A stretch of DNA of 31,718 nucleotides from a virus: positions 1-31,718 of the IMG/VR virus record IMGVR_UViG_3300044712_002160. One strand, 5' to 3'. Shown one piece after another: positions 1 to 31,510 of this stretch. The notes below the pieces were generated by a model. That model was not told the origin of the DNA. It saw only the letters and a program-made list of their open reading frames with translations, and did no database searches. The translations under genes were made by a program, and so were the position numbers. Position 1 is the first letter of the stretch. The number at the start of each line of letters is the position of its first letter.

Positions 1-61
1 CTTTTCCTTCCCCATACGCAGCGGTTATCTCTTCTTCGTTTGGCACGCGGAGCGGTTCCAT
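1..61 (-). CDS. possible N-terminus of a transposase (IS66-like?), cut by the window edge
   Basis: The minus-strand frame starting at the ATG at 61-59 stays open to the left edge and reads MEPLRVPNEEEITAAYGEGK. The pattern LRxPxxEEIxAAYxxG resembles, from memory, the start of IS66-family transposases. Only 20 residues are visible. No terminal inverted repeat was found. An in-frame TGA lies upstream, and a TTG between it and the ATG is an alternative start. If correct, an insertion sequence borders the accessory block on its left. It could equally be the start of an unrelated gene. Confidence 0.3.
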   Translation of the reverse strand, partial: MEPLRVPNEEEITAAYGEGK

Positions 62-136
62 CTCGCTGATTGTCTCTGCCTTTTCCGTTTTTGACAACCC
101 AGAAAAATAAATTCACTGAGCAGTTACGATTTCATT

Positions 137-433
137 GTGCATGCCAATAATTATGAGTTTGAGAAGTTGTGTCTACTTTTAGACGGCATTGCAAAAAGTT
201 ATCCAGCGCAAAACAGAGTAGCAATAGTGGGGGGAACGTATGGTGATGAAATAATTCGTGCGGCTAATGCAGTTCAATCATTAGGTTTTGACACTACCAT
301 TGTTACCCGATATTGCATTTCGGAAAACGTCTTTATTAATCTTGATGATGTGATTGACTTGCTAAATGCTGAAAGAAAGAAACTTTTAGGCGACTTGCTG
401 GACGACTTTGATGAAGAATTTGATGATGAATAG
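137..433 (+). CDS. hypothetical protein, acidic C-terminus
   Basis: This is a 98-residue protein of unknown function. The start is a GTG at 137 with no convincing Shine-Dalgarno sequence, and an in-frame TGA lies 45 nt upstream, so the start is uncertain or the gene may be a 5'-truncated remnant. The middle (about residues 27-60) alternates hydrophobic strands and helices, with VAIVGGTYGDEI and a conserved-looking Cys in TRYCISENV. This loosely resembles the C-terminal half of isochorismatase-like alpha/beta hydrolases, but that is weak. The last 15 residues are strongly acidic (DLLDDFDEEFDDE). It is followed by an 80-nt gap and the DUF6173-like gene. AT content is higher than in the restriction gene downstream, which fits horizontally acquired DNA. 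Confidence 0.5.
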   Translation: MHANNYEFEKLCLLLDGIAKSYPAQNRVAIVGGTYGDEIIRAANAVQSLGFDTTIVTRYCISENVFINLDDVIDLLNAERKKLLGDLLDDFDEEFDDE

Positions 434-513
434 GGCAGCCCACACATTGCCCAGCTCGAACACGGGCGTAACTTTTCCCCTTTAGTTTGTTGCTAGCTCT
501 CAAGGAGAGTATT

Positions 514-918
514 ATGGATTTTGGAAACCTGGATGACGTCCGTAAACAAATCAACCAAATCAGTGAAGCAATGAAAGTTCCAATGCAGTCACTATATGAT
601 GTCGCAAAAGATAATCCTGCACAGTGGACTTATGAGCGCCTGACAAAATATATAAAGGAATTCGAAAACGAATTAGATGATGAGCATGAAGTTGGCGCCC
701 GATTGGTCTCGTTTGGAAACGCGGTGACTTTTTATATTTCAAAACTTGGCTATTACGGCCCTGACATTATTTGTTTTTATGGCGTTGGAGAAAAAGGCGA
801 GAAGTTCCAATTGATCCAAAATATTTCTCAACTTAGCGTTTTGCTTATGGCATTACCAAAATTGGAAAAGAAAGTTCGAAGAATAGGCTTCGAACCAAAT
901 ATTGATTCTAAAAAATGA
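514..918 (+). CDS. DUF6173-like protein
   Basis: This is a soluble protein of 134 residues. The ATG at 514 is chosen because AAGGAG at 502-507 sits at good spacing; an in-frame start at 487 lacks such a site. The central and C-terminal part contains ELDDEHEVGARLVSFG, then GYYGPDIICFYGV, QLIQNISQLSVLL and a terminal RRIGF. From memory this combination matches the DUF6173 family; the match is by eye and the family has no known function to transfer. No signal peptide, membrane segment or catalytic motif is visible. The stop codon overlaps the start of the next gene by 4 nt (ATGA), so the two are probably translationally coupled. Confidence 0.6.
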   Translation: MDFGNLDDVRKQINQISEAMKVPMQSLYDVAKDNPAQWTYERLTKYIKEFENELDDEHEVGARLVSFGNAVTFYISKLGYYGPDIICFYGVGEKGEKFQLIQNISQLSVLLMALPKLEKKVRRIGFEPNIDSKK

Positions 919-1121
919 AAACCTTTCGCATCATTCTCGGAATTCTTGCCATCATCCCGATCGGGTTGATGGTCGCGTCCATTGCGGACCCAAAGATGAC
1001 CGCGCAAAATTCCAACATGGAGATGATCTTCCTGCTGGTTGGCGTTCCCATCCTGGTGCTCAATCTCTGGGCCTGGGATGCGCCGCAGATCATCAAAAAA
1101 CTATTCGGGGTAAAGGAATAA
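915..1121 (+). CDS. small two-helix membrane protein
   Basis: This is a 68-residue protein with two predicted membrane segments: about residues 5-24 (IILGILAIIPIGLMVASIA) and about 37-54 (MIFLLVGVPILVLNLWAW). A short polar stretch links them and the tail is basic. It starts inside the stop codon of the DUF6173-like gene (ATGA overlap), and the TPR-like gene follows 4 nt later, so the three form a tight cluster. Function is unknown. Its codon use is more GC-rich than the two genes around it. Confidence 0.55.
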   Translation: MKTFRIILGILAIIPIGLMVASIADPKMTAQNSNMEMIFLLVGVPILVLNLWAWDAPQIIKKLFGVKE

Positions 1122-1125
1122 AACC

Positions 1126-1761
1126 ATGCCAATATCTTCAAAAATATTATTTTCAGAATATCCACTTGGAATTCAATTTGTTTTATTGACGCATCTAGAA
1201 TCAAGTGATGCTGAAACAATGAAAAGAGCCAGAAAAATTGAAAATGAAATAACAGATAGAAACACAAAAGGAATATCCCTGGAAAAATCAGGCGATCTCA
1301 AAAAGGCGATTGAAGTTTATGAAAATAACGTATCAATCTTTGCCGATACACAACATCCTTACGAGCGCTTGAGAATTATTTATACCAAGCAAAAGAAATA
1401 TGATGATGCCATTCGAGTTTGCCAGGCATTTATTAACATGAGCAAGCAACTTGAACGGGTAGTTTTATTGGAGCTAAAAGATAAAAATCTCGCTGAAAAA
1501 GTAGGCGATATTCAAGAATACGATGTAAAGATCAATAAAATATTACGCCTTCAACATCGTGATAAAACTGGCTTATTACCGCCAAGTTTCAAAAAAATAT
1601 CTATTGCCCCACCAGTTTATAAAGTCAAAGAATCATTACCAAAACAAAAAAGATATTTCCCTTGGAAAGTTATTGGTATTATCTTTGCTATTCTCTCTTT
1701 ATCATTTTTCGCCTGCTTTGCTTTTGGTCTATTTCTTAGCGCAATTGGATATGGTAAATAA
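1126..1761 (+). CDS. TPR-like protein with C-terminal membrane anchor
   Basis: A protein of 211 residues. Residues about 38-110 look like two or three tetratricopeptide-type helical hairpins: a repeated A-x-x-x-Y/C-x-x pattern in DLKKAIEVYENNV, HPYERLRIIYTKQKKYDDAI and RVCQAFINMSK. A basic, proline-rich linker follows. A single strongly hydrophobic segment near the C-terminus (about 183-206, IIFAILSLSFFACFAFGLFL) should act as a tail anchor, leaving the TPR part in the cytoplasm. TPR domains usually bind partner proteins, but the partner here is unknown. The gene is very AT-rich and lies 4 nt after the small membrane protein gene. Confidence 0.6.
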   Translation: MPISSKILFSEYPLGIQFVLLTHLESSDAETMKRARKIENEITDRNTKGISLEKSGDLKKAIEVYENNVSIFADTQHPYERLRIIYTKQKKYDDAIRVCQAFINMSKQLERVVLLELKDKNLAEKVGDIQEYDVKINKILRLQHRDKTGLLPPSFKKISIAPPVYKVKESLPKQKRYFPWKVIGIIFAILSLSFFACFAFGLFLSAIGYGK

Positions 1762-1867
1762 CCGATAATCGTGTATCTCCTCCACCCTGGCTCCATAACG
1801 CCTACGCACGCGACAGCGGCGAGATGCGTTAGAGTTCATTAAAAAATATCAATCTAAAAGGTGAATC

Positions 1868-2122
1868 ATGACTTCTCAAATTCTCGTATACATTCTTCTG
1901 GGAATTGCGTCAATTGCTTACGCGTTTCTTCTCAACACGGATAAAGGGAAAAAACTCGCATCAGAATATACCTGGGCGAGTGTTGTGATTGGTACTGGCA
2001 TTGTTCTCCTGGCGCTTTGGTTTCTTATTTCACATAATAGCTGGCTACAAGTGGTTATATCGTTTGTCGTAGCGGGATCCCCTATGATTGCACGAAGTTT
2101 GATTAACAAAACCAGAAAATAA
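1868..2122 (+). CDS. small membrane protein
   Basis: An 84-residue protein with three hydrophobic segments: about 4-22 (QILVYILLGIASIAYAFLL), about 37-54 (ASVVIGTGIVLLALWFLI) and about 58-73 (WLQVVISFVVAGSPMI). Basic residues sit between segments one and two and at the C-terminus. AAGGTG is placed 6 nt before the ATG. A 106-nt gap separates it from the TPR-like gene; I see no terminator or promoter of note there. Function is unknown. Confidence 0.55.
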   Translation: MTSQILVYILLGIASIAYAFLLNTDKGKKLASEYTWASVVIGTGIVLLALWFLISHNSWLQVVISFVVAGSPMIARSLINKTRK

Positions 2123-2186
2123 ATTTCCAAATCCCTACAACATCCGCATGATACGACAGGTACTACATCCTGAGCTGTAACAAAAT

Positions 2187-5168
2187 ATGACTGCTTCCAC
2201 CGCTCCTGCCATCATCTATAAACTGATCGAAACCTTCGAGCAGAACCTGGACGCGTATCGTTCGAGCAAGAACGAGACGGAGCTGCGCCGCGAGTTCCTG
2301 GATAAGTTTTTCACCGCGCTCGGTTGGGACGTTGCCAACGAAAAGGGCTACGATGAAGCTGGCAAAGAAGTGATCCACGAATTCTCAGTGGATGTTTCGG
2401 GGCAACAGAAAAAAGCGGATTACGCTTTCCGCGTGGGAAGGGGCGAGAAGTTCGACTTTTTGGTGGAAGCGAAGAAGCCCTCGGTCAAGGTGGAGTCGAG
2501 CCAGGACGCGGCGTTCCAGATCCGCAGGTACGGATGGAGCGCCAAACTTCCGATCAATATCCTGACCGACTTCGAGCACTTTGCTGTTTACGACTGCCGC
2601 GCCAAGCCAAGTTATAACGATAAGGCTTCGATGGGGCGGACCATGCTGGTGCATTACAAGGAATACGCGGAGCGGTGGGATGAAATCGCTTCGGTCTTTT
2701 CGCCCGAGGCGGTGCGCAAGGGTTCGTTTACCAAATACACTGAAGGGTTGAAGGGTAAGAAGGGAACGGCGGATGTTGACGATGCCTTCCTGCAGGAGAT
2801 CGAACGGTGGCGTGAGTTGCTGGCGAAGAATATCGCCTTACGAAATGATGATATTGACATCCCAGGCTTGAACTATTCGGTGCAGATGATCATCGACCGC
2901 ATCGTCTTTTTGCGGATCTGCGAAGAGCGCGGCATCGAGCCTGAAAACCAGCTGCAGGAAATCGCCAGCGGGGATGGCATTTACCCTGAACTGTGCGACC
3001 TGTTTAAGCGGGCAGACACCAAATACAACTCTGGCCTGTTCCACTTCAAACAAGAAAAAGAGATCGTCAGCCGTCCCGATGACCTGACCCTCGGCCTCGA
3101 CATCGACGACAAGGTGCTACGGGACATCATCTCGAATCTGTATTACCCGAAAAGCCCCTATGCTTTTCTCTACATCCCGTCCGATATTTTGGGGCAGGTG
3201 TACGAACGCTTCCTGGGCAAGGTAATCCGCCTGACTGCTGGCCACCAGGCCAAGGTGGAAGAGAAGCCCGAAGTGCGCAAGGCGGGCGGCGTCTATTACA
3301 CACCCACCTATATCGTGGAGTACATCGTCATCAATACACTTGGAAAATTGTTAATCGGATTGACTCCAAAAGAAGCGGCAAAACTTAAAATTGTTGACCC
3401 TGCCTGTGGTTCTGGAACATTCCTGCTTGGCGCGTTCGAATATTTGCTGGCATGGCATTTGAAATGGTATAGCGAAAACGACCCCGAAAAATGGGTAAAG
3501 GATAAGGCGCTTGTAAAAGTTGAAAATGATTACCGCCTGACGACATCCAAGAAAAAAGAGATTTTGCTAAACAACATTTACGGTGTGGATATTGACGCGC
3601 AGGCTGTGGAAGTGACGAAGCTCTCGCTGTTGCTCAAAGTGCTGGAAAATGCCAGCGGGCAACTTGAACTCGGCATGGAGCGCATCTTGCCTGATTTGGG
3701 AAATAATATCAAGTGCGGCAACTCGCTGATCGGATTTGATTATTTTGAAGGCCAATTGTTCCCCGACGATGAAGAGCGGGCGCGCGTGAATCCCTTTGAC
3801 TGGCAGCGTGAATTCCCCGAGGTGTTTGCGAAGGGCGGGTTTGATGTGGTGATTGGAAATCCACCCTATGTGAGACAGGAAGAATTGATCGCTTCGAAGA
3901 ATTATTTCCAATCTCACTACAAAACCTATATCCCCACTGCCGACTTGTATGTAAGTTTTATAGAAAAGGAATTGGGGTTGCTTAAAAATAGCGGCTTATT
4001 TGGGATGATTGTCTCAAATAAATGGCTGCGTGCTGCTTACGGGGAACCATTGCGCAAGTTTTTAGTAAGTGATGTGACGCTCACACAAGTTATTGATTTA
4101 GCGGGCTTGCCCGTTTTCGAAGGCGCAACTGTTCGCACAATTATCTTATTGTGTTCGCCCGTTCCCGATAAACAGAAAAGTTTCAAATATCTTGCACCAC
4201 TTCCAATCGATGATTTTAGGAAAATTCAGAGTGGGGTTGATTTGCATGTTGAATTTGAAAAAAAATCAATTGAACTAAAGATTTCCGATTTGAAATCAGA
4301 AGGCTGGGCCTTTTCAAACGTAAAATCGGCGGATTTGCTCTCAAAACTGACCAGCAAGAATATTCCAATAACCCAATATATAAACGGAAAACTTTATTTT
4401 GGTATCAAAACTGGATTGAATAAAGCCTTTGTCATTGATCGCCAAACTCGCGACGAACTTATCAGGAAAAACCCGCAAAGCAAAGAGATTATTAAGCCGC
4501 TTTTGGTAGGAAAAAATGTTAGACGATATTCTGCGGACTTTGCCGAAAATTATTTAATTTGGACATACATTGGCGTATCAATCCAAAAACATCCAGCAGT
4601 ATTCGAACATTTGAAACAATTTCAAGCCGAATTAGAGAATCGTTGGGATAAAGGCGAGCATTGGTGGGAGCTTCGTGCCTGTGACTATTATGATAAATTT
4701 GCAACCTCAAAAATAATTTATCCAGATATAGCTACTTCCTGCCGCTTTTATTTGGATGCAGACGGATATTTTGGGACTAATACAACTTACTTTATTCCAA
4801 GTGATGATAAATATTTGCTTGGTATCCTTAATTCAAAATTGGCACAATTCTTTTTTACACAAGTTTGTGCTGGCCTTGAAGGTACTGGAACAATTTACCT
4901 GCGTTTCTTTGGACAATATATTCAGAATTTCCCTGTCCGATCTTTAGATATTAACGAATCCGCCGAAAAAGCCCAGCACGACAAGATGGTCGCGCTCGTG
5001 GAGCAGATACTGGCGCTGCACAAATCGCTGGCGGGGGCGAAGAGTCCGTCGGAGAAGGAACGGTTGGAACGACAGATCGAGGTCACCGATCGGGGGATCG
5101 ATACGCTGGTCTATGAGTTGTATGGGTTGAGTGAGGAAGAGATCAAGATCGTGGAAGGGAAAAAATAA
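2187..5168 (+). CDS. type IIG restriction-modification enzyme (Eco57I-like, fused nuclease, methyltransferase and specificity domains)
   Basis: A single 993-residue chain expected both to methylate adenine in a DNA target and to cut near unmodified sites. The N-terminal domain (about 1-150) has a PD-(D/E)XK arrangement: REFLDKFF, D78 in KKADYAF, then E94-A-K96 in LVEAKKP. Residues about 360-620 are a gamma-type N6-adenine methyltransferase: GGVYYTP, motif I DPACGSGTF from D404, YGVDIDAQAVEV, and motif IV NPPYV from N558. The region about 720-930 is a TaqI-like target-recognition domain (KLYFGIKTG, LVGKNVRRY, FGTNTTYFI, LLGILNSKL). A short helical tail follows. All catalytic motifs are intact and the length is usual for the family. 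The recognition-domain part (about 3940-4950) is more AT-rich than both ends, which suggests domain exchange. It converges on the D12 methyltransferase gene. Confidence 0.92.
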   Translation: MTASTAPAIIYKLIETFEQNLDAYRSSKNETELRREFLDKFFTALGWDVANEKGYDEAGKEVIHEFSVDVSGQQKKADYAFRVGRGEKFDFLVEAKKPSVKVESSQDAAFQIRRYGWSAKLPINILTDFEHFAVYDCRAKPSYNDKASMGRTMLVHYKEYAERWDEIASVFSPEAVRKGSFTKYTEGLKGKKGTADVDDAFLQEIERWRELLAKNIALRNDDIDIPGLNYSVQMIIDRIVFLRICEERGIEPENQLQEIASGDGIYPELCDLFKRADTKYNSGLFHFKQEKEIVSRPDDLTLGLDIDDKVLRDIISNLYYPKSPYAFLYIPSDILGQVYERFLGKVIRLTAGHQAKVEEKPEVRKAGGVYYTPTYIVEYIVINTLGKLLIGLTPKEAAKLKIVDPACGSGTFLLGAFEYLLAWHLKWYSENDPEKWVKDKALVKVENDYRLTTSKKKEILLNNIYGVDIDAQAVEVTKLSLLLKVLENASGQLELGMERILPDLGNNIKCGNSLIGFDYFEGQLFPDDEERARVNPFDWQREFPEVFAKGGFDVVIGNPPYVRQEELIASKNYFQSHYKTYIPTADLYVSFIEKELGLLKNSGLFGMIVSNKWLRAAYGEPLRKFLVSDVTLTQVIDLAGLPVFEGATVRTIILLCSPVPDKQKSFKYLAPLPIDDFRKIQSGVDLHVEFEKKSIELKISDLKSEGWAFSNVKSADLLSKLTSKNIPITQYINGKLYFGIKTGLNKAFVIDRQTRDELIRKNPQSKEIIKPLLVGKNVRRYSADFAENYLIWTYIGVSIQKHPAVFEHLKQFQAELENRWDKGEHWWELRACDYYDKFATSKIIYPDIATSCRFYLDADGYFGTNTTYFIPSDDKYLLGILNSKLAQFFFTQVCAGLEGTGTIYLRFFGQYIQNFPVRSLDINESAEKAQHDKMVALVEQILALHKSLAGAKSPSEKERLERQIEVTDRGIDTLVYELYGLSEEEIKIVEGKK

Positions 5169-5273
5169 ACATATGTCGACTCTGCTTGCAATTCTCACTG
5201 GTTGTTGCAGTTAGAATCGCCTTTAAAACATTACAATGTTGATCTCCCGACAAATTTGGAATATGGAATTTAC

Positions 5274-5305
5274 AAAAAATTGCCGCCAGATTGAATTTTG
5301 ACGGC
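5274..5305 (-). terminator. probable intrinsic terminator of the D12 methyltransferase operon
   Basis: On the minus strand an imperfect stem (GCCGTC.. pairing with ..GGCGGC, one mismatch) is followed by AA and a six-T run at 5279-5274. It lies 24 nt after the D12 methyltransferase stop codon. The rest of the 160-nt gap to the type IIG gene shows no other clear signal. Confidence 0.55.
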
Positions 5306-5328
5306 CTTTCGCACCAATCAATTTTAGG

Positions 5329-6189
5329 CTAAAGATCTTTATGCTTAATCCGGTCTAATAGCGCAGGTGAGATATATAGCGATTCGTATTTTTGAGAAGA
5401 TTTTCCTAATAAGGTAGCCTGAGATGATCTACCTGCCCTCAATTCACGATGGAGTAAATTTAAGTGTTCAGGTAGTTTTTTCCCATAATGTTTTCGACCA
5501 GTTCTTCCATCATAACTAACCAAGTAACTTATTCCTCGTTTGTTAAGCACTTCTAATGTGCTGACAAATTCAACATAATCCACGCTCTGAAAGTATCTCG
5601 AATCGCGATTTCCACATACCCCTTGATAGGGCGGATCCAAATACACAAAATCATCTGTGTTGGCTGTAATAACAAATTCCTTATAGTCCATTGAAGTAAA
5701 TATTGTTTTACCTTTCAACAATGATGAAATGCTGATGAGCCGTTGTCTCATCTCTTCAGGCGACACCCCATATCTGCGATTATCAGGGCTTTGATTAAAT
5801 TCCCCATTTCGGTTATAACGTACAGACCCTGTAACACAACGTGATAGTAAATATAGAAGATGGTCAGGGCGGCCAAAAATATTAAATTTTTCTCTTATTT
5901 GGTAATAAAACCGAAGATCTTTATGTTGGGCATTCCAAAGTCGTTTGTACTTACTGGATAGCTGTATCGGTGTATTAATAATTTCTTCCCACAATAGCAT
6001 CAAAGGTTTATTTAAGTCGTTAAGATGAAACGATTGGGATAGGTTACTCGAAGATGCAGCTAAAGAGACTGCTGCCGACCCAGCAAATGCTTCGATAATT
6101 CGTTGATTTCCAGGGGGAATATAACTTAAGATCTGAGGAGCTAAATAGCGCTTACTTCCCTGGTATGGAAAAGGAACAGGAATCTTCAT
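5329..6189 (-). CDS. D12-class N6-adenine DNA methyltransferase
   Basis: A methyltransferase of 286 residues that transfers a methyl group from S-adenosylmethionine to the N6 of adenine in duplex DNA. D12 (Dam/DpnM-like, alpha class) features are in order: PYQGSKR at 8-14, the AdoMet-binding motif EAFAGSAAV with F35-x-G37, LNDLN at about 57-60, and the catalytic DPPY at 185-188. The region between is the expected target-recognition insert, with RYNRNGEFN. It starts 5 nt after the GHKL ATPase-nuclease gene, so the two are almost certainly co-transcribed and this enzyme probably protects host DNA from its partner. It could instead be a solitary methyltransferase that happens to be adjacent, but the tight spacing argues against that. 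Confidence 0.92.
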   Translation of the reverse strand: MKIPVPFPYQGSKRYLAPQILSYIPPGNQRIIEAFAGSAAVSLAASSSNLSQSFHLNDLNKPLMLLWEEIINTPIQLSSKYKRLWNAQHKDLRFYYQIREKFNIFGRPDHLLYLLSRCVTGSVRYNRNGEFNQSPDNRRYGVSPEEMRQRLISISSLLKGKTIFTSMDYKEFVITANTDDFVYLDPPYQGVCGNRDSRYFQSVDYVEFVSTLEVLNKRGISYLVSYDGRTGRKHYGKKLPEHLNLLHRELRAGRSSQATLLGKSSQKYESLYISPALLDRIKHKDL

Positions 6190-6194
6190 AAGAA

Positions 6195-8252
6195 TTAATC
6201 GTTTCGATCTTGGGTACCAAGCCCCAACTTCCTCTTTGATGCTGAACGGTGAATTGCTCCAGGCTGAAGAATCTCTCGGGTCCGGGCTACCTCCCTTTCC
6301 TTTCGGGAAAAATTATCGTTATTAATATCGCCATCCAATATAGCTTGGTAATGCTCATAATATGAACGAGTTTTTTTGTATATATCACTCCATAGCTTTA
6401 TTTCTCCATCAGTTCTACCTTCCCAGGCAGTCTTTGTCGGTTCAGTAAGATTAAGCGTACCGCCACATATCATAACCATAAATACATTTTTTCCTCCAGC
6501 CTTTGCCAATCTTTCTTTATACGTCTCTAGGCGATGCAATTCATCTAGTTCAACGGAATGTTCAGAACGCTTAATCTCAATTACTACCAATTTTTGATCT
6601 TCGCCGAGTGCTAAAAAATCATAGCGCATTCGCTCATCTTTATCTTTAATATCTTGTGCATGCCACTCTCTTAACTGTGTAGATATTCTTTTCTCCTCAG
6701 AAAGCACCTGCCATTCTGGGTTCAAAATCCACGGATACCCTGCTAAAAGATCATGCATATTATCAGCTTGCTGGGAGGAGGCTGTTTCTGGGGCGTTATT
6801 TACGATCATAAAGTGAAATTTTTCAATAACTTCTAATCTACCTTTAACAACCTCAAGAATGGCGCGGCTTTCCAAGACCTTCCACTCGTGAAGGTGAGTT
6901 AACAATACTTCTAATTGATCAGGGTTCTCGCTGGCATCTTCTATTTGGCTAATAACATCATGAAAATGCCTATACTCATAGGCCCTGACTAAAGAATCTG
7001 CTAATTGATATGCACGATCTGTGTCCGTTTCCGCTTTTCCCAATTGCTTTAGAAATTTAGATACTTGATTTTGCGATGTTTTATCCATGCGATGGATACG
7101 CTCGTTGATCTCTGGAATTTGCATAACTGCAGATTCCATACGCTCACCTTTTAGATCTGACCATTCACGCAATGCTCTCCTCGTCAATTCGTCCCCCCAC
7201 TTTCTTAATTCAAAACTCCCCTCATCAGCCCAGTCAATTTCTTGCCTGTCAGTCGATATCAAATCCGATTCATCATCAATGCTCTCATCAATATAATCAG
7301 CCTCAATTTCACCAGTCATGTATCTCGTCCAGTGTAACCCGGATGCTGATCCTTCAACATGAAAATAAAATGGTGGTGCTTGAGCAGTCTTACCTTTAAC
7401 GTAAATTGTAAAGCCTTGTAATTCCTTTGATCTAATATTGCTCTTCGTAAATGCATACCAATAACGAACTTTTCCTCCATCAGGAAGTTCTGCTTCTTTG
7501 AAGCCGTTCTTTGGGAAGCGCTGATCAATATCAAGTTCTGGTTCACTAATCAAAATATCATTAATATTGATTTGCATCTCTCCTCGCACACGTCGACTAA
7601 ATCTTCGGCTTAGTGATTCACGAAGTGCAGTTATATTCGGAGGCGATTTGTGCTTCAAGTCTCGTAGTGTAATTCTTGTGCCGCTTTTGCTTTTTTCGTT
7701 ATCTGGCCGAAAACCAATTATTCCGGGAATTTCTAGCAGTTTACTTTCCCCGGCATCCGTCTTTAGATCTCTTATATCTAAAGTTAATTTAGTGGATAGG
7801 TTTTTTGTCCAAGTCAAAACTTCAACTCGATTTGCCAATCCAAAACCTGCAAGTTTTCCAATTCCTTTTCTGCCCATAATTGGCCTTTTCTTAGAAATAC
7901 TTCCATCTACAAGGCGCCGATTTCTACCAACAACTAAGTATTGATTCTCAACATCATCATCGGTCATGCCAATACCATTATCGGAAATACATATTTCACT
8001 TGTTGTTGATTGATATTCCGCTTCATCTGGAATGATGATATTAACTATTGTTGCACCAGCATCCCAGCTATTGGCAACAAGCTCTGCAATAGCTATATCT
8101 CGGCGCTTATACATTTGAACCCCTAAATGTTCAAGCGTACGACCTAAAACTCTGAGGTGAAATATTCTTTGATTCGTTAGCGGAAGGATTCCATTTGAAG
8201 GCATTTCAGACCTCTTATAATCTTGTTCATCAATTCTGGTCATTACTTGCAT
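6195..8252 (-). CDS. GHKL (Hsp90/MORC-like) ATPase fused to a C-terminal PD-(D/E)XK-type nuclease domain
   Basis: This protein of 685 residues has two recognisable parts. The N-terminal GHKL ATPase has the N-box ELVANSWDAG (E57, N61, D64), G1 box DNGIGM at 91-96, and G2 box GRKGIGKLAGFGLA at 127-140; all ATP and Mg-binding positions look intact. Residues about 190-350 resemble the transducer region of Hsp90/MutL/MORC proteins. Residues about 390-480 are helical. The C-terminal part (about 495-600) has DLLAGYPWILNP, then D545 in RYDFLAL and E559-I-K561 in VVIEIKRS, a PD-(D/E)XK core similar to Shedu-type (DUF4263-like) nucleases. ATP-driven dimer clamping coupled to DNA cleavage is the inferred activity. 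It heads an operon with the D12 methyltransferase, matching known associations of MORC-like ATPases with restriction-modification genes. It is divergent from the recombinase gene. Confidence 0.85.
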   Translation of the reverse strand: MQVMTRIDEQDYKRSEMPSNGILPLTNQRIFHLRVLGRTLEHLGVQMYKRRDIAIAELVANSWDAGATIVNIIIPDEAEYQSTTSEICISDNGIGMTDDDVENQYLVVGRNRRLVDGSISKKRPIMGRKGIGKLAGFGLANRVEVLTWTKNLSTKLTLDIRDLKTDAGESKLLEIPGIIGFRPDNEKSKSGTRITLRDLKHKSPPNITALRESLSRRFSRRVRGEMQININDILISEPELDIDQRFPKNGFKEAELPDGGKVRYWYAFTKSNIRSKELQGFTIYVKGKTAQAPPFYFHVEGSASGLHWTRYMTGEIEADYIDESIDDESDLISTDRQEIDWADEGSFELRKWGDELTRRALREWSDLKGERMESAVMQIPEINERIHRMDKTSQNQVSKFLKQLGKAETDTDRAYQLADSLVRAYEYRHFHDVISQIEDASENPDQLEVLLTHLHEWKVLESRAILEVVKGRLEVIEKFHFMIVNNAPETASSQQADNMHDLLAGYPWILNPEWQVLSEEKRISTQLREWHAQDIKDKDERMRYDFLALGEDQKLVVIEIKRSEHSVELDELHRLETYKERLAKAGGKNVFMVMICGGTLNLTEPTKTAWEGRTDGEIKLWSDIYKKTRSYYEHYQAILDGDINNDNFSRKEREVARTREILQPGAIHRSASKRKLGLGTQDRND

Positions 8253-8433
8253 ACCTGCCTGTAGCTATTATAGCAGAATCAGATTCAGGTACTTGGGGCC
8301 AGATGCTTTGCAATTATAATCACTTAAGTTCATCACTATGCTATTATCCACGCCAACTGTTACTAGACTTGACCATAAAATATTCCCTTCTAATGTCCAC
8401 TAGCGCGAAATCGGCTATAGCTACCAAAATACG
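8253..8433. promoter_or_regulatory. divergent intergenic region with TATAAT boxes
   Basis: This 181-nt AT-rich gap separates the minus-strand ATPase gene from the plus-strand recombinase. A perfect minus-strand TATAAT lies at 8272-8267, 14 nt before the ATPase start, but I see no good -35 for it. A palindromic ATTATAAT at 8313-8320 supplies TATAAT on both strands; on the plus strand TTGGGG at 8293-8298 is 16 nt upstream as a weak -35. TTGACC at 8369-8374 is a second plus-strand candidate. The gap probably carries both divergent promoters. If the recombinase belongs to the phage, this may also be a prophage boundary, though no direct repeat could be tested within the window. Confidence 0.4.
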
Positions 8434-10074
8434 ATGACCGCCAACCCCCTCCACGCTCCTCCATCTGCCCTCAGCCCAGGCTCCACAGTTTGGGCTTATT
8501 TGCGCGATAGCGGCGGCCCCAACCAGGATCGTTCCATCGAACAACAGCGCAACATCGTCACAGAATACTGCCTGGCGCATAATCTCGTTCTTAGCCGCGT
8601 CTTTTCCGATGTCCACAAAAGCGGCGGCACCACTGCAGGTCGTGACCAGTTTGAGCAAATGGTCGCCACATCCGCTTCCGAAGCGGACCGCCCTGCGGGG
8701 CTGATCATCTGGAACTTTGCCCGCTTCGCCCGCGACGTGGACGACTCCCAGATCTACAAAGGCATCCTGCGCAAGCGCGGCATCGTCATCCACTCACTGA
8801 CCGATGACATCCCAGAAGGCCCATTCTCTGCCGTCATCGAAACCATCATCCACGTGGCCGATGAACAAAAGAAAAAGGAAGCCGCTCTCGGCTCCTGGCG
8901 CGGTTTGCGTCATATCGTCAAGCAGGGAGCCATTCCAGGCAATCCCCCGCGCGGCTTCAAGCGCGAACCGCTCAAGGTCACCAGCGAAGACGGCACAGAG
9001 CGCACCGCCCACCGCTGGGTCCCTGATCCTGATCTCATTCCCCTTATCAAAAAAGCTTTTGCCATGAAAGCCGCGGGAGCCAGCCTGATCCAGATCCATC
9101 AGCTGGGAATATACGGTTCACTCAATTCCTACCACACCTTTTTCAGTAACAAACTTTACATCGGTGTCCTAGAATATGGCGACATGACCATCCCCAATTA
9201 CTGCGAACCGATGATTGACCTGAAGACCTGGGATGCCGTCCAGAAGATCCTCGATCTGCATGCGGACCGTCAGCATATCTCTCAATCCGAAATCCATCCC
9301 CGCCGCCGAACGCAGATCGCCAATTACCTCCTCTCTGGGATCTCTTACTGTAGCCGCTGTAAGGCACCCCTCAGCGGACTCACTGCCACCCAGCGCAGCG
9401 GCACCAACTACACCCGCTATGCTTGCACCCGTGCCAAACGTCGCCACGATTGCGACCTGAAACCCATCCCCGCCAAACAACTCGAACAGATGGTCATTGG
9501 CGAACTCTCCGCCTTCTTCGATGATCCAGCCAACCTTCAGGCCCTCCTCGATGCAGACCGAGAACAGGCCTTGACCATCTCTGCCGAAATAAAAGAACAA
9601 GCCAAAGCTGTCCAAAAAAAACTGACGGCTTTGCAACGCTCCATTGCCAATATTACTGACGCTATCGCCGAGCGCGGCCACAGTAAATCCATACTCGAAA
9701 AACTGGATAGCCTCGAACGCCAGGAAACAGAACTCCAAACCACCCTGCACTCCATCAAGACCTCCGCCCCCAAATCGCCCGAACCGATCAGCCTTGAAGA
9801 GCTGACAGCCTTCGGAAAGAACATCGCCGCCCACTTGCGCTTCCAGGACAACCTCACCAGGCGAGCCATCCTGCACACCATCGTCAACCAGGTATTCGTG
9901 GACCGCATCCAAAACCATGTCTACGCAATCATTTACATCCATTCCCCCAGTCCCAGAGAACCCGAATCTCCAGAGGATTGTTATACTGTGCCTAAATCGC
10001 CAACTACCGTGGGGGCACCTCTCTATAGGCACAGTATCAAACTGGTGTATGAAATAAAACATCCCCGTCGCTGA
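8434..10074 (+). CDS. large serine recombinase (phage-type integrase)
   Basis: A 546-residue site-specific recombinase that makes double-strand exchanges at short att sites through a serine-DNA intermediate. The N-terminal catalytic domain (about 18-165) has AYLRDSGG with Arg24 and nucleophile Ser26, then QDRSIEQQ and RFARDVDDSQIY. The recombinase domain follows (about 175-290, IPGNPPRGFK). A zinc ribbon uses C306, C309, C331 and C340. A coiled coil at about 385-450 and a final beta-rich segment complete the usual layout. No Shine-Dalgarno sequence precedes the ATG, so translation may be leaderless or weak. The 3' end carries a 12-bp inverted repeat, and the stop codon lies in the loop of a terminator hairpin. 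It converges on the tail fibre gene, so it is most likely the integrase of the adjacent prophage, although its left neighbours do not settle this. Confidence 0.93.
   Translation: MTANPLHAPPSALSPGSTVWAYLRDSGGPNQDRSIEQQRNIVTEYCLAHNLVLSRVFSDVHKSGGTTAGRDQFEQMVATSASEADRPAGLIIWNFARFARDVDDSQIYKGILRKRGIVIHSLTDDIPEGPFSAVIETIIHVADEQKKKEAALGSWRGLRHIVKQGAIPGNPPRGFKREPLKVTSEDGTERTAHRWVPDPDLIPLIKKAFAMKAAGASLIQIHQLGIYGSLNSYHTFFSNKLYIGVLEYGDMTIPNYCEPMIDLKTWDAVQKILDLHADRQHISQSEIHPRRRTQIANYLLSGISYCSRCKAPLSGLTATQRSGTNYTRYACTRAKRRHDCDLKPIPAKQLEQMVIGELSAFFDDPANLQALLDADREQALTISAEIKEQAKAVQKKLTALQRSIANITDAIAERGHSKSILEKLDSLERQETELQTTLHSIKTSAPKSPEPISLEELTAFGKNIAAHLRFQDNLTRRAILHTIVNQVFVDRIQNHVYAIIYIHSPSPREPESPEDCYTVPKSPTTVGAPLYRHSIKLVYEIKHPRR
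9983..10037. repeat. 55-bp dyad inside the recombinase 3' end, possible attachment site
   Basis: The arms ATACTGTGCCTA (9983-9994) and TAGGCACAGTAT (10026-10037) are perfect 12-bp inverted repeats separated by 31 bp, centred at 10010. Attachment sites of large serine integrases are about 40-55 bp imperfect dyads, often next to the integrase gene, so size and place fit. The dyad is within coding sequence, which is unusual. The inner halves show little symmetry. It could instead be an mRNA structure or a chance repeat. Confidence 0.4.
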
Positions 10075-10087
10075 GACGGGGATGTTT
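10057..10087. terminator. bidirectional intrinsic terminator between recombinase and tail fibre gene
   Basis: A perfect 13-bp stem (AAACATCCCCGTC with GACGGGGATGTTT) closes a 5-nt loop. On the plus strand it is followed by GTTTTTAG; on the minus strand its own final T run and ATTTC follow. The recombinase stop codon (10072-10074) is in the loop and first stem base. It can end both the recombinase transcript and the long phage late transcript. Confidence 0.88.
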
Positions 10088-10118
10088 GTTTTTAGCACAT
10101 GAACAAATACACCGTGGA

Positions 10119-11639
10119 TTATATTTCCATATACTCGATGTAGCTCCCTGCCAATACAATCGTATTCCCTGCATTGGATGTGTTTTGCGCCCATTGGAAT
10201 ACCCAGTTGTTGCTGGCGTTTTCTTTTTGCACAATGCCATCAAATTCGATCAAACCGCCAGCCGTGCCAGTGCCCAAAATAGAGATGGTTGTTCCCGTGG
10301 CTGTTATTTCTGTTCCCTCGGTTTCCGTCCCCGACCCGCATGGTGTGCAATGCCAATTGTAATAAGAACGCGTCGGGGTTCCGCCCGCCACATTGCGCCA
10401 TTTGAAATCTGCCGCGGCTGGCGTGTCGAACCAGATGCGCCCGCGGATGGCATATTTTTTGTTGGCGGACATCGCGAACAAAAGTTCCGAATCGGTTGTT
10501 AACGTTGTGTTCGCAGCTCGGCTTTCGTCGCTCGTTTTGCGGACGGTCGTCCAGCGTGGCAATGCCAGATGTGCATCAATTTGCGCGTGCGTGTTGGTGC
10601 CTACATCTCCCAAACTGTTGTGAGGGATGGGTAAATCATTGATCAGGTACGAGTTCCCCGCCAGTATATTGATAGACCTGTTCATTTCCCATCTGCTGGT
10701 GGTAGCCCGCATCCACGTCATTAGAGTTGCATCCACAAGAGACATATCATCGATATATCCATTGAATGAAGCCCCCAATGTGATGAAGATATTGGCGTAA
10801 GTTGCTCCAACAGGAGCCGTGCTGGGAATGCCAATGGAGCGCTGCCAGGTAGCTGTATCTCGATCCTCCTCCAATAGATCATGTCTTTCTATAAGAGTCC
10901 CGCCGCTACTGGCATTCCAATACTCAATCTGCACTCTGAAATCTGCCGAAAAAACAGAACGTCTTGAAAATAATTGGAATAAATATATTTTTCCTGCCGT
11001 AATCGCAAAACGCGCTGCAGAACGAATTACTTGTATCCCAGAATATGGACCAATCATGAGGGCAAATGACCCGCCATGAACAACATCTGATGTGATGGAG
11101 GCGTTTGAGGCGAGCGTTACATTCCAGTTGGATAAGCCTCCGCTTTCGAAATCACCATCCACGATCATATTCGAATTGCCGCGGCGGGCATTGGATATTA
11201 ATACCAACCCTGCATGGCTATTTTCTGCAAAGATGTATGATGAATAGAGGTCGCCCACAAAGTTGTTTCTGGCTTTGAATTCCAGGGGGACGTGGTCGTG
11301 AGTGAGAATACCATCATCGCCGAGTGAAACATCGCCGCCACCCGCCACGGATTTGCCAGTGTCTGCATCCACCCAGAATTGCGGTGTCCCTTTTGCATCA
11401 AGGGCAGCCATGTAACCCTCAATGCCAAGCATTTCTTGCAAGGAATACGGTGAGATGATAAAGCGCAGATTTCCAGCATCATCTACAACACGGACCTGTT
11501 GTGGGTCTGGTTCAGTCGTGTCCATCCCGCGCCCGATCAACGCATACACCAGGCTTTCCAGCGATGCCACCCGTTTTCGCAGATCGTTTTCCTCCCCCAT
11601 AGTCAGTCCAGCAAGCATGTCACTCAGATCAGGATCCAT
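10119..11639 (-). CDS. tail fibre / receptor-binding protein
   Basis: A virion protein of 506 residues at the end of the late operon. The ATG at 11639 is preceded by GAGGAG at good spacing; an in-frame start 15 nt upstream is less likely. The N-terminus has a short coiled coil (ENDLRKRVASLESLVYALI, about 17-35). Next comes a small beta region with LDAKGTPQFWVDADTG. A carbohydrate-binding-like jelly-roll domain begins with NMIVDGDFESGGLSNWNV and spans about 155-310. The C-terminal domain (about 365-506) is beta-rich, contains an HCTPCGSG loop and ends GSYIEYMEI, typical of receptor-binding heads. It overlaps the hub gene stop by 11 nt. The likely role is host-surface recognition, possibly of a glycan. 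Confidence 0.8.
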   Translation of the reverse strand: MDPDLSDMLAGLTMGEENDLRKRVASLESLVYALIGRGMDTTEPDPQQVRVVDDAGNLRFIISPYSLQEMLGIEGYMAALDAKGTPQFWVDADTGKSVAGGGDVSLGDDGILTHDHVPLEFKARNNFVGDLYSSYIFAENSHAGLVLISNARRGNSNMIVDGDFESGGLSNWNVTLASNASITSDVVHGGSFALMIGPYSGIQVIRSAARFAITAGKIYLFQLFSRRSVFSADFRVQIEYWNASSGGTLIERHDLLEEDRDTATWQRSIGIPSTAPVGATYANIFITLGASFNGYIDDMSLVDATLMTWMRATTSRWEMNRSINILAGNSYLINDLPIPHNSLGDVGTNTHAQIDAHLALPRWTTVRKTSDESRAANTTLTTDSELLFAMSANKKYAIRGRIWFDTPAAADFKWRNVAGGTPTRSYYNWHCTPCGSGTETEGTEITATGTTISILGTGTAGGLIEFDGIVQKENASNNWVFQWAQNTSNAGNTIVLAGSYIEYMEI

Positions 11640-30274: not shown

Positions 30275-31510
30275 TCAAGCCATGAGAATCGGCACCTGTC
30301 CGCTGAACTGTGCCCACCTCTCGATCACCACCGCCGCGTAAAGTGGATCCAGTTCCACCGCCCTGCATCGGCGATTCAACTGCTCGCAGACGATCAGTGT
30401 TGTCCCACTGCCAACGAACGGGTCCAGCACCACATCACCAGGCAGGGACGAGTTCACCAATGACCGCTCTACCAATGGAAGCGGCTTCATCGTGGGATGA
30501 TCTTCACTGCGCTTCGGGCGATCAATCTGCCACACGTCGCTCTGTTTGCGGTCCACCACTTCACGGAGTCTCCCCGCGTCGTTTCGCCAGCCGTACCACA
30601 GCGGCTCGAACTGGGTGTGATAATCCTTCCTCGAAAGCACCAACTGATCTTTCATCCAGATGATCGTGCTCGACCAATGGAAACCATAATCACGCAGTGC
30701 CTTGTCGATCACAGGCCATTCCTGAGCGCTCATCACCAGATAGATCAACGCACCCTTCTCACTGAAGTCGTGCATATTCTTTACAGCCGCTCGAATGAAC
30801 TCAGGAAACTTCTCGCCCAGATTGTCGTTCTTCATCGTCCGCTTTTTATATCCCTGTGCATTTTGATCTTCGATGTTCCCGCCATAGTCCACATTCCAAG
30901 GGGGGTCCGTCCACGTGATCTGCGCCAACTCACCCTGCAACAGCATGGTCAACACCGCCGCGTCGGTACAGTCTCCGATTGCCAGGCGATGCTCTCCCAG
31001 CTTCCAGATCTGCCCCTCTTCTGTTTTCCATTTTGCGACCAGCTCCTCTCCATGCTCCACCAGTTCAACAGGATCCGCGGTCTCTTCTTTCACGTGTTGA
31101 TCCACGTCCATCAATAGTCTCTGTAGTTCCTTGTCCAGGAAACCGAGCGAATCCATGTCCATCCCTGCCGCGGCGTCCTCTGCGATAACGGATGCATCCC
31201 ATGCCAAGTCCAATTCTGCCACGCGGTTATCCAGGTATGCCAGCCTGCGCGCTTCACCTGTACCATCATCCAAGTCCAGGTCTTCCCGTTGCACAACCAC
31301 CAACTCGTCCCGACTCGATGGCACAATGCGGACCTTGAGTCCTGCCTTCCTCGCCGCGGCCAGCGTCTTGTTCCCAGCAATGATGCGTCCGTTCTTGTCG
31401 CTCAGAATGGATCGTCCCGCTCCCAGTTCCGTCACCGATTGCTCGAGTAGTTCTCGCCCGCGCTCCGTGCCCTTGTTGGCGTTGCGATCATCGAATTTCA
31501 AATCAGTCAT
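30275..31510 (-). CDS. ParB-like domain fused to DNA methyltransferase (N4/N6, beta class)
   Basis: A protein of 411 residues. The N-terminal part (about 1-110) resembles a ParB/sulfiredoxin-like domain: RGRELLEQSVTELGAGRSIL, then GRIIAGNKTLAAARKAGLKV, a G-N-x-x-x-x-A-A-x-x-x-G signature. The methyltransferase follows with catalytic DPPW in ITWTDPPWNVDYGG (about 205), a target-recognition middle, and the AdoMet motif LDPFVGSGTT near the C-terminus (about 370). The order catalytic motif before AdoMet motif marks the beta class of amino-methyltransferases. It probably modifies phage DNA to evade host restriction. It overlaps the partial methyltransferase gene by 8 nt, and their C-termini are similar, suggesting duplication. 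Confidence 0.9.
   Translation of the reverse strand: MTDLKFDDRNANKGTERGRELLEQSVTELGAGRSILSDKNGRIIAGNKTLAAARKAGLKVRIVPSSRDELVVVQREDLDLDDGTGEARRLAYLDNRVAELDLAWDASVIAEDAAAGMDMDSLGFLDKELQRLLMDVDQHVKEETADPVELVEHGEELVAKWKTEEGQIWKLGEHRLAIGDCTDAAVLTMLLQGELAQITWTDPPWNVDYGGNIEDQNAQGYKKRTMKNDNLGEKFPEFIRAAVKNMHDFSEKGALIYLVMSAQEWPVIDKALRDYGFHWSSTIIWMKDQLVLSRKDYHTQFEPLWYGWRNDAGRLREVVDRKQSDVWQIDRPKRSEDHPTMKPLPLVERSLVNSSLPGDVVLDPFVGSGTTLIVCEQLNRRCRAVELDPLYAAVVIERWAQFSGQVPILMA

Follow-up and report, generated by a model that had tools for sequence, protein, structure and literature searches.

Described systems with GHKL nucleases or D12 methylases

The paraMORC3 class was defined in 2008 by Iyer, Abhiman and Aravind as proteins consisting of a GHKL ATPase domain, an S5 domain and a C-terminal nuclease of the restriction endonuclease fold with an E-D-ExK motif (PMC2292703). 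In that survey, genes of MORC and paraMORC proteins were located mainly in restriction-modification (R-M) neighbourhoods, and the accompanying methylases were mostly cytosine-specific and rarely adenine-specific (PMC2292703). BbrUII and HgiDII, for which an NCBIfam model (NF050001) exists, belong to a related family, and M.HgiDII is a 5mC methylase for the sequence GTCGAC (PMC5867850). A further relative, VcSduA, is a Shedu type I protein with an N-terminal GHKL ATPase and a C-terminal PD-(D/E)xK nuclease, both of which are required for defence. It has been tested against phages and is reported to act as a single-protein system, with no methylase described (PMC12137116). D12 adenine methylases are known from another type of system. 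In type II R-M systems such as that of Hymenobacter plasmid pHsw3 (PADLOC PDLC03566 and PDLC03341), the D12 methylase is combined with a restriction enzyme of about 240 aa containing an HNH domain.

Organization of the locus

The DNA analysed here, called the window in the following, comprises bases 1-31,718 (31,718 nt) of IMG/VR virus record IMGVR_UViG_3300044712_002160. According to the list of open reading frames, a gene for a protein of 685 aa extends on the minus strand from base 8252 to base 6195 and is followed on the same strand by a gene for a D12 adenine-N6 methyltransferase of 286 aa (bases 6189 to 5329). Only the five nucleotides TTCTT separate the stop codon of the first gene from the ATG of the second. 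The initial annotation had described a gene for a GHKL ATPase with an intact D12 gene 5 nt downstream, and the open reading frames, Pfam matches and an alignment of 66 homologues agree with it in coordinates and motifs. For the larger gene, the true start is probably the codon of M17 (base 8204), resulting in a protein of 669 aa, since a Shine-Dalgarno-like sequence, AAGAGG (8211..8216, minus strand), is located 6 nt before this ATG and homologues begin near this position. An imperfect palindrome without strand assignment, detected in a repeat search (5323..5348), is located where the D12 gene ends (3'), between this gene and a convergent gene for a type IIG restriction enzyme (2187-5168, plus strand). 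A scan for consensus promoters produced matches at chance level, and a search of E. coli genomes at the DNA level yielded no match.

The setting is that of a mobile element, and a second restriction enzyme and an integrase are encoded nearby, as initially described. The type IIG protein is a complete fusion of restriction and methylase functions with an HSDR_N nuclease, an Eco57I/N6 methylase and a TaqI_C specificity domain (PADLOC PDLC03604, 5.7e-206). The GC content of its gene drops from about 0.55 to 0.36 toward the 3' part specifying specificity, which hints at an exchanged specificity region. On the other side of the operon, a large serine recombinase is encoded as integrase (8434-10074, plus strand). 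In a related phage, phage-type genes for a primase and a regulator are present on the side of the integrase that corresponds to bases 1-8252 of the window. A related phage (L327, 8342-9160) encodes an HSDR_N_2-domain protein directly upstream of its serine integrase, on the same side as the restriction genes of the window. No direct repeats that could represent attachment sites were detected in bases 1-10400, and the prophage boundary was not located. In the phage part, a gene on the minus strand (30275-31510) specifies an N6/N4-type DNA methylase preceded by an N-terminal region that, in our reading, resembles ParB.

The two genes of the operon are closely matched in base composition. GC content and third-position GC are 0.38 and 0.31 for the first gene and 0.40 and 0.31 for the D12 gene, compared to 0.50-0.58 and 0.52-0.75 for the phage genes and the integrase and 0.47 and 0.55 for the type IIG gene. 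These values are consistent with a joint arrival of the two genes. Unrelated genes at the left end of the window (137-1761) also have a low GC content (0.33-0.38), and composition is therefore supporting evidence and no proof of joint arrival.

Domain structure of the GHKL nuclease

The 685-aa protein consists of a GHKL ATPase domain, an S5-like transducer domain, a helical middle region and a C-terminal PD-(D/E)XK nuclease domain. It matched Pfam HATPase_c_3 (4.5e-22) and, over its full length, phrog_6203 (2e-94). The ATP-binding region, approximately residues 27-149 (7806..8174, minus strand), contains the N-box residues E57, N61 and D64, the motif D91-x-G-x-G and a loop from G127 to K133, with little or no variation among 66 homologues; E57, N61, D64, D91, G93, M96, K129, G130, G132 and K133 are strictly conserved across the 66 aligned sequences. 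An AlphaFold model of the whole protein, built without three plasmid homologues, had a mean pLDDT of 84.7. In Foldseek searches, this model matched the ATPase modules of MORC3, MORC2 and the Hsp90-type protein TRAP1 across about 400 columns. In the alignments to the MORC3 and MORC2 modules, which comprise GHKL and S5 domains, TM-scores normalized by target were about 0.5-0.57, indicating that the predicted domain following GHKL is S5-like.

The nuclease domain comprises residues 470-645 (6318..6845, minus strand) and was recognized by its motif, by family profile and by fold matches. The core D545/E559-x-K561 noted initially is present and conserved, but it was incomplete, as E489 has to be added to obtain the motif E489-D545-E559-x-K561. 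In the alignment of 66 homologues, no substitution occurs at E489, D545 or E559, while position 561 is lysine in 59 and methionine in seven. A profile constructed from 63 homologous C-terminal domains detected NucS (1.7e-5), EndoMS (1e-4) and Shedu SduA (2e-4) among solved structures. A separate model of the C-terminal domain (pLDDT 93.9) was most similar to EndoMS/NucS (9e-6 to 1.4e-5), and E. coli SduA followed with 1.7e-3. Pfam SduA_C (DUF4263) was matched by 36 of the 63 C-terminal domains; no match was obtained with the window protein or with its C-terminal domain alone, although the fold is shared with SduA. The domain is thus predicted to adopt the NucS/SduA fold, with NucS/EndoMS being nearer, and at the level of the fold the assignment as a nuclease is well supported. 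This agrees with the earlier view that a GHKL ATPase is fused to a nuclease-like domain.

In seven paraMORC3 homologues (L090, L091, L028, L098, L100, L015 and L103), E-x-M replaces E-x-K in the nuclease core. The substitution is always the same, and the surrounding sequence is EFMRP in six of them and resembles it in all, which hints at an active site that is changed but still functional.

Relationship to known GHKL nucleases

All features of paraMORC3 proteins were found: intact GHKL motifs, an S5-like domain, for which the evidence is from fold comparison only, a nuclease of the restriction endonuclease fold with E-D-ExK, and linkage to R-M genes. The protein is a member of the paraMORC3 class, known ATP-using restriction enzymes. 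The initial annotation recognized no common named system. This view has to be revised, because the description of paraMORC3 in 2008 (PMC2292703), the NCBI model for BbrUII/HgiDII and the tested VcSduA (PMC12137116) already exist, and the GHKL nuclease itself is not new. With model NF050001, the window protein scored 242.7 bits in two matched stretches. The equivalog cut-off is 550 bits, and the protein is accordingly a distant relative of BbrUII/HgiDII and not an equivalog. A homologue from phage PhiR44_1 (L002), which is annotated as 'ParaMORC3' and has a Dcm gene beside it, reached 751 bits. While the architecture is shared with BbrUII/HgiDII, no C5 methylase gene is present near the gene of the window. 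Compared to VcSduA, the order of ATPase and nuclease is the same, but VcSduA is reported to function without a methylase and the window protein lacks a direct match to SduA_C.

Two further groups of proteins were also observed. Two GHKL proteins resembling VcSduA (L166, 5007-6773, and L163, 1-1746) form a long separate branch; the first matches SduA_C, and no C5 gene was detected in the available sequence around either of them. In two other loci (L140, 4944-6920, and L025, 4926-6920), a paraMORC3-like gene is located downstream of a large adenine methylase gene in one operon, with no C5 gene. The methylase is of the DISARM type (DrmMI, 1071 bits in L140), and L140 has a P-loop ATPase gene in addition. 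The two loci possibly represent a DISARM-related variant.

Methylase genes associated with GHKL nucleases

Genomes, viral contigs, plasmids and phages were searched for homologues by conserved motifs and with capped numbers of matches, so that further members linked to D12 may exist. For determining methylase partners, non-redundant homologues with at least 90 bits were counted, including the window, and those below 90 bits were left out. Genome matches below about 40 bits were mostly proteins of about 630 aa matching in the ATPase region only, as expected of HtpG-like chaperones. C5 genes were predicted with a model built here, which was checked against GenBank annotation for six plasmids and one phage and against the NCBI dcm model for the two closest relatives.

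A C5 cytosine methylase gene was present within 500 bp in 87 of 100 homologues, and in 70 of the 81 for which at least 1.5 kb was available on both sides. Within the same distance, a D12 gene was found once, in the window. All 87 homologues next to a methylase gene of a kind covered by the models thus possess a C5 enzyme, in contrast to the D12 adenine methylase of the window. Among 400 genomes drawn separately from the phylum to which one homologue (L034) belongs, seven homologues were detected, including L034 itself; six of these had a C5 gene and none had a D12 gene in the short stretch of sequence covered. A prevalence of homologues lacking D12 had been named beforehand as a result that would refute the initial interpretation, and this result was obtained. 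The D12 gene is therefore a local replacement of the usual partner and not a conserved component of a two-gene system, as had been envisaged, and the view of an uncatalogued defence system linked to D12 is not upheld. The pair was found a single time in the collections searched, so the link between GHKL nuclease and D12 is not supported by conservation, and this was counted against an exchange of partners.

The window protein forms a clade with its closest relatives, L089 (58% identity) and L009 (45%), with an SH-aLRT support of 100. In both relatives, a C5 gene is located upstream and overlaps with the gene for the nuclease, by about 20 nt in L089 and about 8 nt in L009. The two C5 methylases share only 36% identity with each other, and the nuclease lineage of the window may therefore not have one fixed specificity. 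A scan tuned to this clade revealed no further close member, and scans of viral sequences with either the GHKL protein or the D12 protein as single query detected no close relatives. There was no sign of a local domain swap in the nuclease that could have caused the change of partner, as identity to L089 takes a smooth course (0.38-0.82 in comparison segments of 60). In L009, a Lentisphaerae genome, genes for an OLD/AAA-type ATPase and a Vsr-like protein follow the pair of C5 and paraMORC3 genes (7126-9343).

The D12 methylase and its relatives

The second protein of the operon matched MethyltransfD12 (PF02086, 7.2e-32), TIGR00571 above its cut-off and PADLOC MTase_II (PDLC03341, 2.9e-78). By these matches it is an alpha-class adenine-N6 methyltransferase, with the DPPY motif starting at residue 185. 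Relatives with more than 200 bits were detected at 19 loci representing 18 distinct sequences. At 16 of these loci, the D12 gene adjoins a gene of one family of HNH restriction enzymes of about 240 aa (PADLOC PDLC03566, Pfam HNH), and one of the three remaining loci is at a contig end. The methylase of the window belongs to the same subfamily. It is 48% identical to that of plasmid pHsw3 (L169) and up to 58% identical to those of viral contigs, and 46 residues are invariant across all 20 aligned members of the subfamily, including the window. In every segment, it is as similar to the D12 proteins paired with HNH enzymes as these are among themselves. From this similarity over the whole length, it probably recognizes the same target. 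The restriction enzymes differ, HNH proteins in the one case and a GHKL-PD-(D/E)XK enzyme in the window, and neither the window nor any of the GHKL loci contained a match to a model of the HNH partner.

Deriving the target from residues of Dam was abandoned, as both the start of the protein ('PYQGSK') and the stretch following RYN are different in Dam. A characterised relative was not found. The loci L247-L263, L169 and L170 constitute a coherent type II R-M family of HNH (PDLC03566) and D12 genes on phage contigs and small plasmids. Both gene orientations occur in this family, and a conserved N-terminal segment precedes the HNH domain.

A probable partner exchange between R-M systems

Linked genes for a nuclease and a DNA methylase, both intact, as in type II R-M systems, are present in the operon, and the proposal of an R-M module with D12 as the likely guard is supported. 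Domains, intact catalytic residues, operon structure, the lack of a C5 gene and the affiliation of the D12 protein to another kind of system are direct readings of the sequence. They suggest a natural exchange of partners between two R-M systems. The locus is likely to be a type II-like R-M operon beside a prophage integrase in which an m6A D12 methylase has replaced the ancestral m5C guard. Both enzymes would then be active, with ATP gating cleavage and the operon restricting phages. The paraMORC3 protein would be the restriction enzyme. By analogy to MORC, MutL and Hsp90, two subunits may close their GHKL domains upon ATP binding and clamp DNA, and the clamp would bring the C-terminal PD-(D/E)XK nuclease, which is NucS/Shedu-like, into place for cleavage at unmethylated sites. 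In the lineage of the enzyme, protection of these sites is normally the task of a cytosine-C5 methylase; in the window, this role would fall to a D12 adenine-N6 methylase whose family otherwise guards an HNH enzyme.

A change of the guard from m5C to m6A requires that both methylases cover one site, and we infer that the GHKL nuclease and the D12 enzyme act on the same site. If so, the HNH enzymes and the GHKL enzyme are predicted to be isoschizomers or to have nested sites. A precedent for one site being guarded at different bases is provided by the isoschizomers NruI and Sbo13I, the guard being a probable m6A methylase for NruI and a probable m4C methylase for Sbo13I (PMC2890505). M.NruI is not of the alpha class according to the analysis of its authors (PMC2890505), and it is a precedent only and not a relative of the D12 methylase of the window. 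As for the way in which the exchange occurred, a tentative scenario, possible but doubtful, is that recombination took place between two unrelated R-M systems whose targets are identical or nested and that the guard passed from cytosine-C5 to adenine-N6 while the GHKL enzyme was kept; paraMORC3 enzymes may tolerate such exchanges by sensing site methylation loosely in the DNA-clamp step and not at one fixed base.

Three other explanations were considered. The GHKL protein could be a Shedu-type defence protein that, like VcSduA, senses ends or structures of phage DNA and needs no methylase, the D12 gene being an unrelated neighbour. The match of the C-terminal family profile to SduA, the SduA_C matches of 36 of 63 domains, E. 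coli SduA among the top fold matches and the reported defence by VcSduA as a single protein (PMC12137116) point in this direction. This explanation appears unlikely, however, since the VcSduA-like members without a methylase, L166 and its sister L163, are far off in the tree, the C-terminal domain of the window has no SduA_C match, the closest relatives have overlapping C5 genes, and the D12 methylase is from a family of restriction guards and not of orphan enzymes.

Alternatively, two decayed R-M systems could have been joined by chance, the GHKL enzyme having lost its C5 methylase, or being guarded by a host C5 enzyme encoded elsewhere, and the D12 methylase having lost its HNH partner. The usual partner of each gene is indeed missing from the record, to which this statement is confined, and there is one example of the pair. 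Such a junction is rather improbable, because the two genes are intact, retain every catalytic residue and form one operon with a gap of 5 nt and matched GC and third-position GC, and a restriction enzyme that is intact but has no guard should be harmful to its host.

That the D12 enzyme serves the phage, for example by shielding prophage DNA from host restriction, and does not guard against the GHKL enzyme is very improbable: D12 methylases are common among phage genes and the viral record contains the further methylase gene at 30275-31510, but the nearest relatives of the D12 protein guard HNH restriction enzymes, D12 proteins of named phages are far more distant (31.8% identity at best), and the D12 gene differs in GC content from the phage structural genes.

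Implications

New in the operon described here is the partner, an adenine methylase in place of the usual cytosine methylase. R-M systems are usually viewed as tightly locked pairs, as the host loses its protection if the methylase does not fit. With a natural exchange between two unrelated families, the way in which a new guard becomes fixed could be tested directly, and such an exchange predicts one recognition site common to two unrelated restriction enzymes. Self-protection of a paraMORC3 enzyme would in this case be accessible to standard long-read sequencing for m6A, and this would help to clarify how nucleases gated by a GHKL domain distinguish the DNA of the host from foreign DNA.
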